Source of the DNA: an uncultured Bacteroides sp.
GTDB taxonomy: Bacteria; Bacteroidota; Bacteroidia; Chitinophagales; Chitinophagaceae
DNA: 34,856 bases
Reading direction: 5' to 3'
Assembly (NCBI GenBank): GCA_902168085.1
Contig: CABHOP010000004.1
Span: 1-34,856, forward strand
The position numbers and the translations under genes are program-made. A model generated the notes under the pieces. That model did no database searches, was not told the origin of the DNA, and saw nothing but the letters and a program-made list of their open reading frames with translations. Below, piece after piece: positions 1-26,329 of this stretch; position 1 is the first letter of the stretch, and each line of letters begins with the position of its first letter.

Positions 1-317
1 GGCATAACTGGTGCGGGTGAAGTAGTACCTGTATAAGTAAAGTTAGTAGCGTTTGTTTTAACGGTTACAGCGAAGTTTTTGTTAGAACGTACCTTCAGGC
101 CTTGCTCGCTTGAAGTAACACCGTTAGCATAATCATTAACTGTATTGAAAGCCAGGTTAACGGCAGCACCTGTAGCGCTGTTGTTACCTGTAAAGGTCAG
201 CTCGATAGCATTGCTCAGGTTCAGGTTCACGGTTTGCGTAGCAGTGCTGGAAGCGTTTTGAGCGTTAGCGGCGAAATATGCAGAGATCAGGGCAGCGATA
301 GCGAATACTTTTTTCAT
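1..317 (-). CDS. Secreted pilin-like protein, 3' end cut off by the contig edge
   Basis: The gene reads leftward off the contig, so only about the first 105 codons are present, from an ATG at 317. It opens with a Sec signal peptide (MKKVFAIAALISAYFAANAQ, cleavage after AQ). A threonine-, asparagine- and alanine-rich mature part follows, with alternating beta-strand-like hydrophobicity. The visible 317 bases align without gaps to 25885-26201, the first 106 codons of the complete paralog at 25652-26203. One block of almost 60 bases looks identical in both. No cysteines are seen. By analogy with the full copy it is probably a beta-sandwich surface subunit, possibly a pilin; that function is inference. 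The assembly probably broke here because of the repeat. Confidence 0.8.
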   Translation of the reverse strand, partial: MKKVFAIAALISAYFAANAQNASSTATQTVNLNLSNAIELTFTGNNSATGAAVNLAFNTVNDYANGVTSSEQGLKVRSNKNFAVTVKTNATNFTYTGTTSPAPVM

Positions 318-21668: not shown

Positions 21669-22232
21669 ATGTCAGAGGCAACAGTAAACCAGGAAACAAA
21701 GTGGTATGTATTGCGCGTAATCAGTGGCAAGGAGAAAAAAGCCAAGGAATACGTAGATAAGGAAATAAAGATAAATGGCTGGAGTAATGCCATATTCCAG
21801 GTGCTATGCCCCGTAGAAAAAGTTTTTAAAGTTCAGGCAGGTAAAAAAGTACTGCGTGAAAAAATATTGTACCCCGGTTACCTGATGCTGGAAGCAGCAG
21901 ATGGCAAACTGAATGATGACATGATACAAACCATCAAGAATGTATCGGGTGTTATTCACTTCCTGGGTAAAGACAATCCTACATCGCTGCGCAAATCTGA
22001 AGTAAACAAGATGTTTGGTAAGATGGACGAAGTGAGCGAACAGGGTATAGGCTATGCAGAACCTTACATTGTAGGCGAAACTGTACGCATCACAGATGGT
22101 CCTTTCAACGATTTCAACGGTACGATAGAAGAAGTAAACGAAGAGAAGAAGAAACTGAAAGTAGTTGTAAAGATATTTGGCCGTGCTACACCGGTAGAGC
22201 TGAACTACATGCAGGTAGAGAAAATAGCATAA
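21669..22232 (+). CDS. nusG: Transcription termination/antitermination protein NusG
   Basis: NusG binds RNA polymerase and couples it to Rho or the ribosome. The 187-residue protein has the NGN domain (about 10-115, opening with [19 protein letters not shown]) and a C-terminal KOW domain (about 130-187, [22 protein letters not shown]). It is translated 16 bases after secE. Unlike the common order, no rplK follows: a 15-bp terminator hairpin ends the transcript and the next gene is convergent. Confidence 0.97.
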
Positions 22233-22252
22233 TCAAACACATTGCATATATG

Positions 22253-22290
22253 AAATCAGCCATTAGCATTGCTAATGGCTGATTTGTTTT
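22253..22290 (+). terminator. Strong terminator after nusG
   Basis: A perfect 15-bp stem (22253-22267 with 22271-22285) around a 3-base loop, followed by GTTTTTAATT. It closes the tRNA-Trp–secE–nusG unit and faces the convergent 89-aa gene. Confidence 0.9.
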
Positions 22291-22305
22291 TAATTACTTC
22301 TTCTG

Positions 22306-22575
22306 CTAAACGCTCTGAGCGTATTCGGCTACCGAACCATGTATGACCCGTCTCAGGTCGGCAGTAAGTTCCTCTACATTCACTTCGTTCTTATCGCGTA
22401 CACGTTTAATAAGATAAACAGCGGCAGTCATCAATGTTTGGTTGATCATCTGCATGTTGTTTACAAGATTGCCAACATAATCATAGGAGTCTCGTGTGCT
22501 GGCTTTTAAATGTTTTTTCACCACAAGCCTTGACATACGGGTGAAAACGGCTAATGCTCTTTCCTGAGGATTCAT
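22306..22575 (-). CDS. 89-aa helical protein of unknown function with a pilin-type promoter
   Basis: A small soluble, apparently all-helical protein without signal peptide, membrane segment or cysteine. It is rich in Met, Val, Arg and Asn (for example RMSRLVVKKHLK and NLVNNMQMINQTLMTAAVYLIKRVRDKNEV). I do not recognise a family. The start is the ATG at 22575. Its promoter region matches, element by element, those of the two secreted pilin-like genes (positions 377-460 and 26247-26329), so it is likely expressed with them. It follows the usher-like gene on the same strand but has its own promoter in the 167-base gap. A regulatory or assembly role in that system is an inference from shared regulation only. 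Confidence 0.7.
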   Translation of the reverse strand: MNPQERALAVFTRMSRLVVKKHLKASTRDSYDYVGNLVNNMQMINQTLMTAAVYLIKRVRDKNEVNVEELTADLRRVIHGSVAEYAQSV

Positions 22576-22627
22576 TAGTAAAGTGTTTTAATAGTTATAG
22601 TTCAGATTGCGTTTCCCTTATATGATG

Positions 22628-22711
22628 CAAATATGCATTGCATGGACGCTAAAGACAAATTTTATATGTGTTGTTAACGAGTGCTTTGCAACCCATTAAC
22701 AAACGCTTAAC
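22628..22711 (-). promoter_or_regulatory. Promoter with phased hexamer array, copy C
   Basis: On the minus strand, -7 CATATTTG (22635-22628) and -33 TTTG (22659-22656) are 20 bases apart. Plus-strand hexamers sit at 11-bp steps: gttaac 22673, ctttgc 22684, attaac 22695, cttaac 22706. Aaagacaaatttt around the -33 and gctttgcaa around slot two are shared with copy B. It drives the 89-aa gene. Confidence 0.7.
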
Positions 22712-22742
22712 ACAATTAAAATGATGGGTTTAAGCGCAGGCA

Positions 22743-25514
22743 TCAATCCTTTTTGCGGATATTGATCTGGCGCTTACGTTGTTTAATGTCGAAATAAATG
22801 GTCTTGGTATTGTTATTCACCAAATCGGCAGGCTGGGAAAACTGTGTAGGCCTGAAGTTGTCGTCAAAAGCCAGCGGGCTTAATGTAATGATGTAGTTAC
22901 CACTGGGCAGGTTGAAGTAGAACTCTCCATTTTCATCTGTAAGCGTAGCATATTTGATGGTATCTGCGTTCTCCACCGTTTCGGCGGTGACCTTAATGTT
23001 ATTCAGCTTGAAGCTAAGGTTGGAATTGGAGTCGATAGTAAGGTTCAGTTTGCCTTGCAATATCTTACTTATTTTATACGGTACATATAATGTCTGGTTG
23101 CCTTTTACCGTAACAAACTGTGTAGGCCCCAAACTGGGCACCCAGCCGCGTATCTTGCTGCTATAGCCAAAGTCGGCCTTGTATTCGCCTTTGTCTATGT
23201 TTTTGAATAGGATGCTGCCATCCTTATCCGTAATAAAGAGATTATTGCCCAAAGAAAGCATCTGGCCTGCAATGGACTCTTCATCATTGTTCTTCATGCC
23301 ATCATTATTGGCATCTTTAAACAATACTATCTTAAGTGCATAATACTTGCGGGCCACTACAAAGGGTGCATGCAAACGAACACGCAGGGATGCACTGATG
23401 TATGGTGTCATTTCCAATTGCTTCACCGGGATGATGCCAATCATATTGAAGTCGAAGCCAAGCTTAGGATTCGCATAGATGACATTGGCCAGTATGTTTG
23501 AAGTTTCAATATCGCCCGGTTTTGTTTTGTTGTAGTTGAGTTGTGAACGGATGTTGAGCGTGCGTTTGAAAAGACTGACTTCTGCAAATGGGCTGATGAC
23601 AATGCGCTCGTAAGCCTGTGGGGCCTTGATGTAAGAAATGTATTCGTGGTAATAGTACGGGCCATTATCGTAGCGGAATGAAGCGCCTATCCAGCGGTAT
23701 TGGATATTGCCCTGGTTACTGTTGATAGTAACTGCGGTAGTAGTTTCCTGGCCCGGTATTACACCTTCCCCGTAATAAGAGTTTAATGTAATAGATAGCC
23801 TTTTGAAGAATAGTACCGATGCATTCAGGTTGAGGTATGAGAAACGGTACCTGGCAAAATTTCCTGTATCGCTTTGTACCTGCAATTGCTTGCCCGCCGA
23901 TAATACGATACTGGCCCCATTCATTCCAAAACCTGTGCGCACACCGTAGTTTTCGGTTTCCAGGTTGAAGACATCGGAAAACAAAGTAGTATCCTGGTAG
24001 AAGTTTTGCCGGCGCAGGTTGTATTCATAAAAGCCACCGGTAAATACTTTTTTGTAAATAAGCCGGGCGTCATGGTTCTGCATGCGCTGGCCTTTGAAGA
24101 TGCCGGGGTAAGAATTACTGTTGTATAATACAGAAGACGACACGGCCGACCATTTGCTGGCCCATTGCAGGTTGTAACCTGCCGATGTACCCCATAGCTT
24201 ATCTTTGGCATTGCCGGCCAGTTTCTGAAAAGTTTGTTCCATACCCACGCCACCTGAAAGTATCAGCTTACCTTGCTCGGCAAAGCGCCATTCTCCATTC
24301 TGCTTTACCAGGTAGCTATTTAGTTGGCGTTCATTATCAAAGTTGGCAGTGGCGCCCCCTGCTATCCGGATATTTTCCCGCAGCCCGCCATATTCATAAT
24401 TGATACCCCCAAGTTTACTGTCGCCGGTGCGGCTCTTCAGCAAACCATAGGCATCCAGCCTATCGCGTTGTTTCCATTTATGGCCTATTTTGGCACCATA
24501 GCCATCCATGTAAAAGTCAGTTAGCTCATTGATGTTGCCGGCAGTGCCGTACCATTTATGCCCATTATATTCGGCACGCACAATACTATTATCAATAGCC
24601 TGGCCTTTAGATAGTGTTTTACTGCGCAGGTCGATGGCTATTTTGTCTTGTGGTGTAAGATCTACAGAACCATGCAGCGCGCCGTAGTATTGCACGTTAT
24701 CTTCCCCCTGGTAAGTAGCACCGGCTTCCAGTTGCAATGGCATATCGAGGTAAGCAGACGAGTGCTCTTTAAGTACGCTGCCTATTTTAGAAACTACCTG
24801 TGCCAGGTTCATCGTTTCGCCGTTTTCTACGCTTACCTGCACTTTTATCTCTTCCTTCTTCAGCATACTCCACTGCCGCTCTGTAATGTGCAGGGGAATA
24901 TAGAAAGTAGAGTCTTTACCGGGTGGAAGTAATAAGGACTGCTGATAATCGAGCTGCAGGAAAGTATTTTGAAACTTAACCGTATAGTTATTGGGGGTAT
25001 TGCCCATATTGCGCAGCACCACGGGAAACCTGATATTCTTTTCATACCCTGCCATCACATAGTTACCATTGGGTAGGGTGGCTTTGAACTTGGTAAATTC
25101 TTTTACCCGTACCCTGAACGTATCTACCAGTTTTTCAAGCCCATCGTTGAGGCGGTATTCTATACGTACCGTTTGCCATACTGCAGTGCGCGATTTAGTG
25201 GGTACCAACCGGATAGGGATACTGGTATTGCCATTTTCATCAAGGCTTACGGTTACCAGACTTTGAGTTACCATTTCCCACCCTTCGGGGGCGGTAACAT
25301 TTACTATGACGCTTATTTTATTATTGGTAAGGTTGGTGATATTGATGGTATTGTAAAGAAAATCCCTGTTACCGGCTGCTACCAGGGTATCATTGAGCAA
25401 GGCAGTTTTATAAATTGTTTTGCTAAGCTGTGCATTGGCTACCGTAGTTAGCAGTAGCAAAAACATAGCAAAAACGAATGCAGTTGTTGTTTGATATTTA
25501 GGGAGTCCTCTCAT
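22743..25514 (-). CDS. Usher-like outer-membrane protein with N-terminal Ig-like pair and C-terminal beta-sandwich domains
   Basis: A 923-residue protein with a signal peptide (1-29, ending NAQ). Two Ig-like domains follow. The first (about 30-138) contains NVTAPEGWEMV, like NEW3-type domains; the second spans about 140-240. Residues ~250-720 alternate tyrosine/aromatic and polar positions with many G-x-x-Y strands, as in a large outer-membrane beta-barrel. The end carries two beta-sandwich modules. One, about 726-815, is SdrD-B-like with a calcium-type loop (DANNDGMKNNDE); the other, about 816-912, is carboxypeptidase-regulatory-like (TLTDENGEFYFNLPSGNYIITL). The order resembles a fimbrial usher fused to a chaperone-like pair, but no family match can be claimed without a structure search. 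The ATG at 25514 is preferred over a GTG at 25526. The upstream neighbour is a pilin-like gene. Confidence 0.75.
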   Translation of the reverse strand: MRGLPKYQTTTAFVFAMFLLLLTTVANAQLSKTIYKTALLNDTLVAAGNRDFLYNTINITNLTNNKISVIVNVTAPEGWEMVTQSLVTVSLDENGNTSIPIRLVPTKSRTAVWQTVRIEYRLNDGLEKLVDTFRVRVKEFTKFKATLPNGNYVMAGYEKNIRFPVVLRNMGNTPNNYTVKFQNTFLQLDYQQSLLLPPGKDSTFYIPLHITERQWSMLKKEEIKVQVSVENGETMNLAQVVSKIGSVLKEHSSAYLDMPLQLEAGATYQGEDNVQYYGALHGSVDLTPQDKIAIDLRSKTLSKGQAIDNSIVRAEYNGHKWYGTAGNINELTDFYMDGYGAKIGHKWKQRDRLDAYGLLKSRTGDSKLGGINYEYGGLRENIRIAGGATANFDNERQLNSYLVKQNGEWRFAEQGKLILSGGVGMEQTFQKLAGNAKDKLWGTSAGYNLQWASKWSAVSSSVLYNSNSYPGIFKGQRMQNHDARLIYKKVFTGGFYEYNLRRQNFYQDTTLFSDVFNLETENYGVRTGFGMNGASIVLSAGKQLQVQSDTGNFARYRFSYLNLNASVLFFKRLSITLNSYYGEGVIPGQETTTAVTINSNQGNIQYRWIGASFRYDNGPYYYHEYISYIKAPQAYERIVISPFAEVSLFKRTLNIRSQLNYNKTKPGDIETSNILANVIYANPKLGFDFNMIGIIPVKQLEMTPYISASLRVRLHAPFVVARKYYALKIVLFKDANNDGMKNNDEESIAGQMLSLGNNLFITDKDGSILFKNIDKGEYKADFGYSSKIRGWVPSLGPTQFVTVKGNQTLYVPYKISKILQGKLNLTIDSNSNLSFKLNNIKVTAETVENADTIKYATLTDENGEFYFNLPSGNYIITLSPLAFDDNFRPTQFSQPADLVNNNTKTIYFDIKQRKRQINIRKKD

Positions 25515-25591
25515 GATGCATTGCACAGTATATATGCAGGCAGCGTCTTATCGATGGTAAATATAATGAATGGCGGGCAGCTAATACTGAT

Positions 25592-25617
25592 AAAAAGGAG
25601 CCTTACGGGGCTCCTTT
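25592..25617 (-). terminator. Terminator between the pilin-like and usher-like genes
   Basis: A 9-bp stem aaaggagcc / ggctccttt with a 6-base loop; on the minus strand TTTTTA follows. It lies 35 bases after the pilin-like stop and 78 bases before the usher-like ATG. Partial read-through would give much more subunit than usher. Confidence 0.8.
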
Positions 25618-25651
25618 ACCAAAACTATGCACTATGAAAAACCAATTTAAA

Positions 25652-26203
25652 TTATTGTTGTGTAGCTGTGTACACTACATCTACTGTGTAGGTACCGGCA
25701 GGGTAAGCAAAACCCGGAGTAGCTTCGTACTTCACTGCGAAAGTCTGGTTGCCACCTTTGCTGCCATTTGTTATCAGGTTTTTAGCCGTGCTGCTCAGGT
25801 CAGCATAGGCAGAAGCAGAATATGGAGTAGCAATGGTACCACCTGTACCGTTTGCAGACACCATTACACCCAGCACACCGGCTATAGGCATTACAGGGGC
25901 AGGTGAAGTAGTACCTGTATAAGTAAAGTTGGCAGCGTTTGTTTTTACCGCTACTGTAAAGTTTTTATTAGAACGTACTTTCAAACCTTGCTCGCTTGAA
26001 GTAACACCGTTAGCATAATCATTAACTGTATTGAAAGCCAGGTTTACCGCAGCACCTGTAGCACTGTTGTTGCCTGTGAAGGTGATTTCGATAGCATTGC
26101 TCAGGTTCAGGTTAACTGTTTGTGTAGCTGAAGATGAAGCGTTTTGAGCGTTAGCAGCGAAAGATGCAGAAATCAGGGCGGCGATTGTGAATACTTTTTT
26201 CAT
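25652..26203 (-). CDS. Secreted pilin-like beta-sandwich protein (complete copy)
   Basis: A 183-residue secreted protein. The signal peptide is residues 1-20 (MKKVFTIAALISASFAANAQ). The mature 163 residues are Thr/Ala/Asn-rich without cysteine. It opens with a strand TQTVNLNLSNAIEITFTG and ends with a C-terminal strand YPAGTYTVDVVYTATQQ, similar in flavour to the last strand of archaic chaperone-usher pilins and spore-coat-U-like proteins. I do not recognise a certain family; the pilin role is inferred from fold-like pattern, its usher-like neighbour and the terminator between them. The ATG at 26203 is used; a longer frame from 26272 would cover the promoter. A near-copy is truncated at 1-317. 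Confidence 0.8.
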   Translation of the reverse strand: MKKVFTIAALISASFAANAQNASSSATQTVNLNLSNAIEITFTGNNSATGAAVNLAFNTVNDYANGVTSSEQGLKVRSNKNFTVAVKTNAANFTYTGTTSPAPVMPIAGVLGVMVSANGTGGTIATPYSASAYADLSSTAKNLITNGSKGGNQTFAVKYEATPGFAYPAGTYTVDVVYTATQQ

Positions 26204-26246: not shown

Positions 26247-26329
26247 CAAAGATGCATCGCCGCATCACCCAAGACAAATTTTGAGCCCCCGTTAACCCGC
26301 GCTTTGCAATCGGTTAACAGGCGGTTAAC
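26247..26329 (-). promoter_or_regulatory. Promoter with phased hexamer array, copy B
   Basis: On the minus strand, -7 CATCTTTG (26254-26247) and -33 TTTG (26278-26275) are 20 bases apart. Plus-strand hexamers at 11-bp steps are gttaac 26291, ctttgc 26302, gttaac 26313 and gttaac 26324. This is the clearest of the three copies and drives the complete pilin-like gene. Confidence 0.7.

Follow-up and report, generated by a model that had tools for sequence, protein, structure and literature searches.

Probable usher and pilus subunit genes of a divergent chaperone-usher-like pathway in an uncultured Bacteroidota

What is built by two neighbouring genes, one for a small pilin-like secreted protein and the other for a large barrel protein that begins with a chaperone-like pair of immunoglobulin (Ig) domains? 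The genes lie in the window analysed here, the 34,856 nucleotides of contig CABHOP010000004.1 from an uncultured Bacteroidota (GTDB family Chitinophagaceae), and a first-pass annotation read them as a possible undescribed pilus system in which an usher has absorbed its chaperone. Our analysis makes it likely that Bacteroidota have a diverged pilus pathway of chaperone-usher-like type and that the window carries its usher together with one major-type subunit, a reading built on three gene families that cluster or co-occur and on a predicted usher-like architecture. The features are collected in table 1.

Table 1. Features of the usher-like locus (window coordinates)
Feature	Position	Strand	Basis
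Pilin-like secreted subunit, 183 aa from ATG	25652..26203	-	Open frame, family of copies, conserved residue
Second subunit gene copy, cut by contig end	1..317	-	93% identical over 105 aa
Usher-like outer-membrane protein, 923 aa	22743..25514	-	Conservation, predicted model, Foldseek
Signal peptide of usher-like protein	25431..25514	-	Residues 1 to ~28; hydrophobic, ends VANA, read by eye; low pLDDT
N-terminal Ig pair, chaperone-like	24786..25412	-	Residues 35-243; model and hhalign
Beta-barrel, no plug-sized insert	23373..24737	-	Residues 260-714; model strand list, fold matches
C-terminal beta-sandwich 1, SdrD_B-like	23049..23342	-	Residues 725-822; PF17210 E 5.8e-9, above cut-off, best stretch 731-783
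C-terminal beta-sandwich 2, CarboxypepD_reg-like	22749..22994	-	Residues 841-922; PF13620 E 4.9e-5, under cut-off
Intrinsic terminator-like hairpin of subunit gene	25592..25617	-	Stem GGAGCC/GGCTCC and T run, by inspection
Promoter-like region of subunit gene	26247..26278	-	TTTG, ~20 nt, CATCTTTG
Small gene, 89 aa, directly 3' of usher	22306..22575	-	Weak R3H match only

Both genes are real. Their frames are open, that of the usher-like protein giving 923 amino acids from its ATG (927 if an upstream GTG is used), and in nine of ten loci with usher relatives (43–99% identity) the frame is open over almost its full length; the exception, L019, is frame-broken. The proposed order, in which an Ig pair is followed by a large barrel and then by two beta-sandwiches at the C-terminus, is also what an AlphaFold2 model predicts (mean pLDDT 74.4, pTM 0.45), in which the strands at either end fit two Ig-like domains and two beta-rich C-terminal regions. 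The barrel has about 26 long strands, by a hand count from the strand list of this pLDDT 74 model; PMC11459180 gives the usher barrel as 24-stranded. The longest gap between long strands of the barrel is about 25 residues (618–642), too short for a beta-sandwich, so that the model would have no plug domain.

Is this barrel that of an usher? When the model was searched with Foldseek against 350,542 chains, ranks 1–4 were FimD usher chains (E 2e-10 to 2e-9), with low TM-scores (0.18–0.28 by query length, 0.19–0.37 by target length). Among the 50 matches listed by VIA-align, FimD chain 9fxs_D alone aligned over the barrel plus the C-terminal part (254–906); in the same comparison FimD and PapC are equalled or outscored by TonB receptors, porins and MtrB, so the barrel by itself is not diagnostic. 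The two C-terminal beta-sandwich domains, which are a trait of the usher family, are found by both the Pfam scan and the model. The Pfam Usher model (PF00577) does not match the 923-residue protein up to E 5, no usher, PapD or pilin family is above cut-off for any window protein (Pfam, NCBIfam), and hhalign against the classical ushers of E. coli K-12 gives nil (0.1–1.2%). PF00577 is likewise above cut-off in none of 296 Bacteroidota genomes, with E. coli as the positive control; one relative, L136, matches it below threshold (E 3.2e-4).

The N-terminal Ig pair occupies the place where classical ushers have their own N-terminal domain, a domain that is absent here (hhalign of the Ig pair against K-12 ushers, 0.1%). 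It was described as chaperone-like and this has been borne out, since it matches a family of separate two-Ig chaperones at 96% in hhalign, or at 79% once signal peptides are removed, against 0.3 and 0.7% for reversed controls. This resemblance speaks for a fused chaperone-usher that is self-contained and needs no separate chaperone to export the subunit, as does the finding of no chaperone within any of the 14 fetched loci of the window's subtype, which we call type A. The window itself contains no chaperone match, as the annotation stated; elsewhere in the same genome, there are two separate two-Ig chaperones, distantly PapD-like. In a set of 59 genomes (this one and its relatives), a separate two-Ig chaperone is present in all 20 that bear the usher and absent from 38 of the 39 that do not (both 20, usher only 0, chaperone only 1, neither 38; Fisher p 7.5e-15, kinship ignored), and copy numbers of usher and chaperone are equal in 17 of the 20. 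Genome G015 has the chaperone without the usher, and in G014 a type-A chaperone locus accompanies ushers found to be of type B only. Given this co-occurrence we reject a fusion that works without a chaperone, and regard it as very improbable.

The placement of the genes points the same way. At all 14 type-A chaperone loci, which lie apart from the usher, two subunit genes flank the chaperone, and in all 22 fetched usher loci outside type A the usher, chaperone and subunits are clustered, with chaperone and subunit genes near the usher in eight of eight type-B loci (of ten such matches) and in 14 of 14 more distant ones. The pairing of barrel and pilin-like subunit that was proposed for the window recurs within type A: in 11 of the 14 loci usher and subunit genes are no more than about 210 bases apart; the others are L060 (at a contig edge), L068 and L071. 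One genus member (G003) that has neither usher nor chaperone has no subunit genes, and the remaining 14 of the 15 members have 5–28. Ten of the 14 distant loci also encode a large subunit-like protein, a candidate adhesin, and the gene order resembles that of pilus operons. Of ten proteins scanned from the remoter loci, five resemble the known families that would be expected there, and none of these reaches the cut-off; these sub-threshold matches include PapD_N (E 0.002 and 0.0074), CooC_C (E 1.3e-5) and DUF4402 (E 7.8e-5).

At E 1e-5, 67 of the 296 Bacteroidota genomes sampled contain relatives of the separate chaperones. When compared with seven E. coli K-12 chaperones the family aligns colinearly in hhalign, at 94% over 213 columns or, after removal of signal peptides, at 50% over 191 columns (0.3% for the reversed control); its matches to K-12 pilins and to the subunits studied here, about 31% over 17–31 columns, indicate that short Ig-like similarity is common. 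Pfam PapD does not match the two chaperones of this genome and is below cut-off in two remote ones, and the family profile finds no PapD-type chain among the PDB sequences up to E 10. In the known chaperone-usher pathway, residues Arg8 and Lys112 of the chaperone anchor the subunit. In a joint alignment the Arg8 column holds R or K in 12 of 23 nearer chaperones, 1 of 17 remoter ones and 7 of 7 from K-12, and the Lys112 column holds H, K or R in 17 of 23, 0 of 17 and 7 of 7, respectively; in the C78 chaperone these two columns are T and H.

What the chaperone profile does find in the PDB is the two-domain WxL-interacting protein EfmWxLIP1 (9i25, 9i1y; E 1.4e-5 over both domains), which belongs to a Gram-positive system that is not known to have an outer-membrane usher. 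The locus might encode a surface scaffold like the WxL/WxLIP clusters, with small surface proteins bound by the two-Ig protein, a barrel that serves for general transport as a porin or exporter, and no fibre. One of seven chaperones scanned (L103) passes the PF06030 cut-off, which the two from this genome do not reach. Among the WxLIP domains, however, the N-terminal one alone is matched, the family of the second domain (DUF3324) not being listed for any of the seven, and FimD chains head the Foldseek list, the gene order is that of pilus operons with its adhesin candidates, and related subunits occur in the PDB as entries with 16 chains each (below). On balance we consider such a scaffold very unlikely.

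This genome contains 20 matches to the subunit's family, three of them cut by contig ends. The window subunit has no cysteine in its 183 residues, as first noted, and a tyrosine near its C-terminus (Y172) is invariant in all 21 aligned rows. Its predicted model is poor (pLDDT 55.5) and gave no usable fold match. In Pfam and NCBIfam scans no family is above cut-off (best Pfam line, PapG_N, E 0.017), and SCPU (PF05229), the archaic Csu pilin domain, is listed neither for it nor for the other subunits scanned. Profile evidence (hhalign) for homology to FimA-type pilins varies with the set compared: 77% over 120 columns against the FimA family, falling to 44% and 10% (30 C-terminal columns) and 0.7% with other sets.

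Bacteroidota use both type V (Mfa/Fim) pili and type IX secretion, and neither is known to require helper genes beside that of the subunit; this subunit might be of either sort. The absence of cysteine means that there is no lipobox, and no type V pilin or type IX sorting-domain family is listed for the subunit. A type V pilus or a type IX client is thus rejected on sequence features, and we hold it to be extremely improbable. According to PMC5789003 (2018), type V subunits are lipoproteins whose maturation depends on a cysteine; for the type V fimbriae of P. gingivalis, a member of the Bacteroidota, the same paper states that chaperone or usher helpers have not been identified and are probably not present.

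Two related operons, L111 and L112, carry an usher and a chaperone of the kinds described here, and their subunits match the PDB proteins TLP-1 and TLP-2 (9ikj, 9ikk) over nearly their full length (E 7.5e-48 to 3.8e-43). These, which we take to be the Tsinghua Lotus Pond filaments of CryoSeek, are entries of 16 identical chains each; at 236–237 residues they are longer than the window subunit and are matched by the subunit family profile (E 4.6e-5, positions 23–80) but not by the window subunit alone. The related operons are offered here as gene clusters for these proteins.

In the diverged pathway that we favour, subunits would leave the cytoplasm by Sec and be held in the periplasm by the separate chaperone, supplied here from another locus, which would lend them a strand. 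Chaperone-subunit complexes would dock on the barrel protein, the strand lent to each subunit by the chaperone being replaced by the N-terminal strand of the next subunit (presumed donor-strand exchange), and the fibre would exit through the barrel. The N-terminal Ig pair of the usher, in the position of the classical recruiting domain, probably receives the complexes or caps the fibre base; this is the least certain step.

The classical systems (FimC/FimD/FimA of type 1 pili) share with this one the large barrel with two C-terminal beta-sandwiches, the separate two-Ig chaperone, the small secreted subunits and, in most related loci, the clustering of the genes. Unlike FimD, the window usher has a predicted barrel of some 26 strands with no plug-sized insert and no sequence family above cut-off in common, and unlike the classical arrangement its subtype keeps chaperone and usher apart and has a subunit with 20 genome matches. 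Toward the alternative (CFA/Ecp) systems there is a faint likeness of its C-terminal part to EcpC (24%, 136 columns; K-12 classical ushers against EcpC, 47%) and the sub-threshold CooC_C match in one relative; toward the archaic Csu systems, compared through Pfam models, the window proteins show neither PF00577 nor SCPU.

A broader reading has about an even chance of being correct. Bacteroidota would have a deep chaperone-usher branch of their own, in which a built-in chaperone-like acceptor of the usher replaces the classical recruiting and plug domains, the chaperone takes an intermediate position between PapD and the WxL-interacting proteins of Gram-positive bacteria, and fibres of the environmental TLP-1/TLP-2 kind are built. 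If true, this would supply the missing assembly machine for the TLP structures, and the essential parts of chaperone-usher assembly could be tested against another arrangement of the pathway, one whose usher contains a chaperone-like module. No description of a chaperone-usher system of Bacteroidota was recognised in the open-access PMC literature (titles and abstract openings, which is no proof of absence); the word undescribed holds within that literature and the family libraries searched.

The hairpin between the two genes is present as first reported (-14 kcal/mol, z -1.88, with 7 of 200 shuffles equally good; a terminator scan does not list it). A similar stem and T run follow, by eye, eight of the nine other subunit copies with aligned downstream DNA (the exception is C89b), so the hairpin belongs with the subunit gene, and its suggested role as a special device favouring subunit over usher is rejected. 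Upstream, the promoter-like region, read against the Bacteroidota -33/-7 consensus, resembles by eye the DNA before ten other aligned subunit copies, with changes in C73b and C22; no match of a sigma-70 scan covers it. Finally, the small gene 3' of the usher has a counterpart of 88–126 residues in seven of ten loci (L011–L016 and L019; in the other three the stretch ends shortly after the usher), with a subunit gene between usher and small frame in L014, and is possibly an accessory gene.

The two open reading frames recognized in the first-pass annotation, a 923-amino acid (AA) usher-like barrel protein ("usher") and, upstream of it, a 183-AA pilin-like secreted protein ("subunit"), are indeed present. 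They had been read as a chaperone-usher fusion exporting the subunit without a separate chaperone; a chaperone-usher-like pathway survives our analysis but the fusion without a chaperone does not, since the chaperone is a separate protein, and the window's pathway is probably a variant of the chaperone-usher kind. Two genes for two-Ig, distantly PapD-like chaperones lie elsewhere in the window genome, on contigs C55 and C78. C55 also carries a second usher-like gene (28% identity), and its gene run is a divergent chaperone, then subunits, then usher. This genome gives 20 subunit matches with an E-value of 0.001 or lower; contig ends truncate three of these.

Window genes discussed here
Feature	Position	Strand	Product
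Usher	22743-25514	minus	923 AA
Subunit	25652-26203	minus	183 AA
Small gene directly after usher	22306-22575

The usher and the chaperone occur together. Among 59 genomes (the window's own and 58 relatives; usher found by single-protein search, chaperone by profile search) the usher is present in 20 and the chaperone in 21; 20 have both, none the usher only, one (G015) the chaperone only and 38 neither (Fisher p 7.5e-15, uncorrected for relatedness). Copy numbers of the two are equal in 17 of the 20 genomes, the exceptions being G011, G014 and G032. Subunit matches number 5–28 in each of 14 of the 15 genus genomes; the fifteenth, G003, has none, and usher and chaperone are absent there too. Across 296 Bacteroidota genomes, 67 match the chaperone profile at E 1e-5, many of them weakly, and 18 the usher profile at E 1e-10, seven of these over nearly its whole length. 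The Pfam Usher model (PF00577), with E. coli as positive control, gave no match over its cut-off in these 296 genomes and sub-threshold matches in five.

Gene neighbourhoods, in which we counted profile matches within fetched surroundings of usher or chaperone genes, differ between two usher subtypes. In type A, that of the window, 11 of 14 loci have a subunit no more than about 210 bases from the usher (L060 is at a contig edge, and L068 and L071 lack a subunit there) and none of the 14 has a chaperone; these loci are not independent, as the window and L059 are near-identical, and L059, L060, L061, L063 and L068 are, judging by their length, contigs already among the relatives from the first usher search. 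The type-A chaperone has its own locus, where two subunit genes flank it in 14/14 fetched cases, one of them from G014, whose detected ushers are type B only. Type B, by contrast with type A, has chaperone and subunit in all eight fetched loci (of ten usher hits); coordinates place a chaperone about 1.4 kb away in the unfetched G006:C13, and profile-match coordinates show none in G011:C9. More distant loci found via the usher have both in 14/14 cases, and ten of these encode a 326–478 AA protein matching the subunit profile, a candidate adhesin. For 20 loci found via the chaperone, an usher profile match adjoins the chaperone in 12; eight of the 20 were picked with an usher hit on the contig already known, and the remaining 12 include four with an usher. 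The chaperone-like genes of L128, L129, L130 and L134, with no usher match within the stretch, may be solo two-Ig proteins or accompany a more diverged usher.

Several smaller features of these loci were noted. The small gene after the usher holds that place in seven of ten usher loci of relatives. Type-B clusters seem, by eye, to share small putative accessory genes (L021 9915-10529, L074 4234-5642, L077 9275-9640, L078 4663-6070). Putative dapD and mscS genes (names by eye) precede subunit and usher in several relatives (L022 11796-14598; L062-L067); in the window genome they accompany a subunit copy on C89, and subunit, usher and nusG are on C4 (window 21669-26203), as if a rearrangement had taken place at one of the subunit copies. 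The relatives that came from the contig search belong to metagenome-assembled genomes, several of which carry the name Flavipsychrobacter (Chitinophagaceae) or Bacteroidetes. L011, with a 99% identical usher and the same gene order, is titled Azovibrio restrictus, which looks wrong since its apparent genome (G011) is placed in the window's genus.

Neither window protein matched a pilus family over cut-off in Pfam or NCBIfam, where SdrD_B matches the C-terminal part of the usher, nor, searched alone, any PDB sequence up to E 5. Profile comparison (hhalign; E. coli K-12 families as yardstick, 11 unrelated families as controls) gave 94% over 213 columns for the chaperone against K-12 chaperones and 96% over 181 columns for the usher's N-terminal Ig pair (residues 35-243) against the chaperone, with unrelated controls under 8%. 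These figures are partly due to signal peptides, because without them they drop to 50% and 79% (reversed controls 0.3–0.7%). A direct comparison of the N-terminal pair with K-12 chaperones fell short (1.3% and 3.8%); a tandem-Ig control gave 0.1%, and K-12 chaperones against EcpB, as a gauge, 2.4%. The usher gave 0.1–1.2% against K-12 classical ushers, and its C-terminal part 24% against EcpC. Membership in PF00577 was considered and rejected: unlike ushers of that family, the 923-AA protein has no Usher model match and no predicted plug or usher-type NTD. It is a putative usher by its working, outside PF00577.

In the best reading, drawn from family resemblance, the subunit would leave the cytoplasm through Sec, be captured by the separate chaperone and dock with it at the usher, where strand exchange would join one subunit to the next and the fibre would exit via the barrel. 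What the usher's own Ig pair does is the most interesting question here. Near their N-terminus, large proteins adjoining remote chaperones (L131 6200-9919, L136 3598-6582) show weak similarity of the copper amine oxidase N-terminal kind (E 0.037 and 0.029), and the Ig pair may therefore be confined to some members of the family. Of ten proteins of remote loci that were scanned, five gave matches, to PapD_N (two), Usher, CooC_C and DUF4402, in the expected gene kinds, all below cut-off and several outscored by generic beta-domain families; these loci are a putative further bridge to known families. A search of PDB sequences with the chaperone profile brought up the WxL-interacting protein EfmWxLIP1 (E 1.4e-5) but none of the PapD chains, which speaks for a chaperone placed between the two groups or of WxLIP-like origin.

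The subunit profile matches the PDB proteins TLP-1 and TLP-2 (presumably filaments from Tsinghua Lotus Pond, CryoSeek) over 58 positions (E 4.6e-5 and 6.7e-5), and for the subunits that operons L111 and L112 encode, the match extends over almost the entire length (E 7.5e-48 to 3.8e-43). Each entry holds 16 identical chains, which suggests that these proteins form a fibre. The window genome has seven further complete or near-complete subunit copies, 87–98% identical in protein; relative to the usher-side copy, DNA identity is 80–95% in the coding region, 46–70% in the 250 bases upstream and, for copies with downstream DNA, 31–45% over the 200 bases that follow the gene. A stem and T run follow the stop in eight of nine other copies with downstream DNA, and a TTTG...TTTGCATCATC-like region precedes the subunit in the ten other copies with upstream DNA (changed in C73b and C22; both by eye), and each copy therefore looks like a transcription unit of its own. 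Contigs of the window's assembly begin or end in or near subunit copies (window 1-317, G000:C62:1-534, G000:C36:16005-16289, G000:C18:268-813), and the repeats thus probably broke the assembly. Tandem subunit arrays of at least nine genes per stretch occur at G002:C11:446425-454860 and G009:C1:37504-46049.
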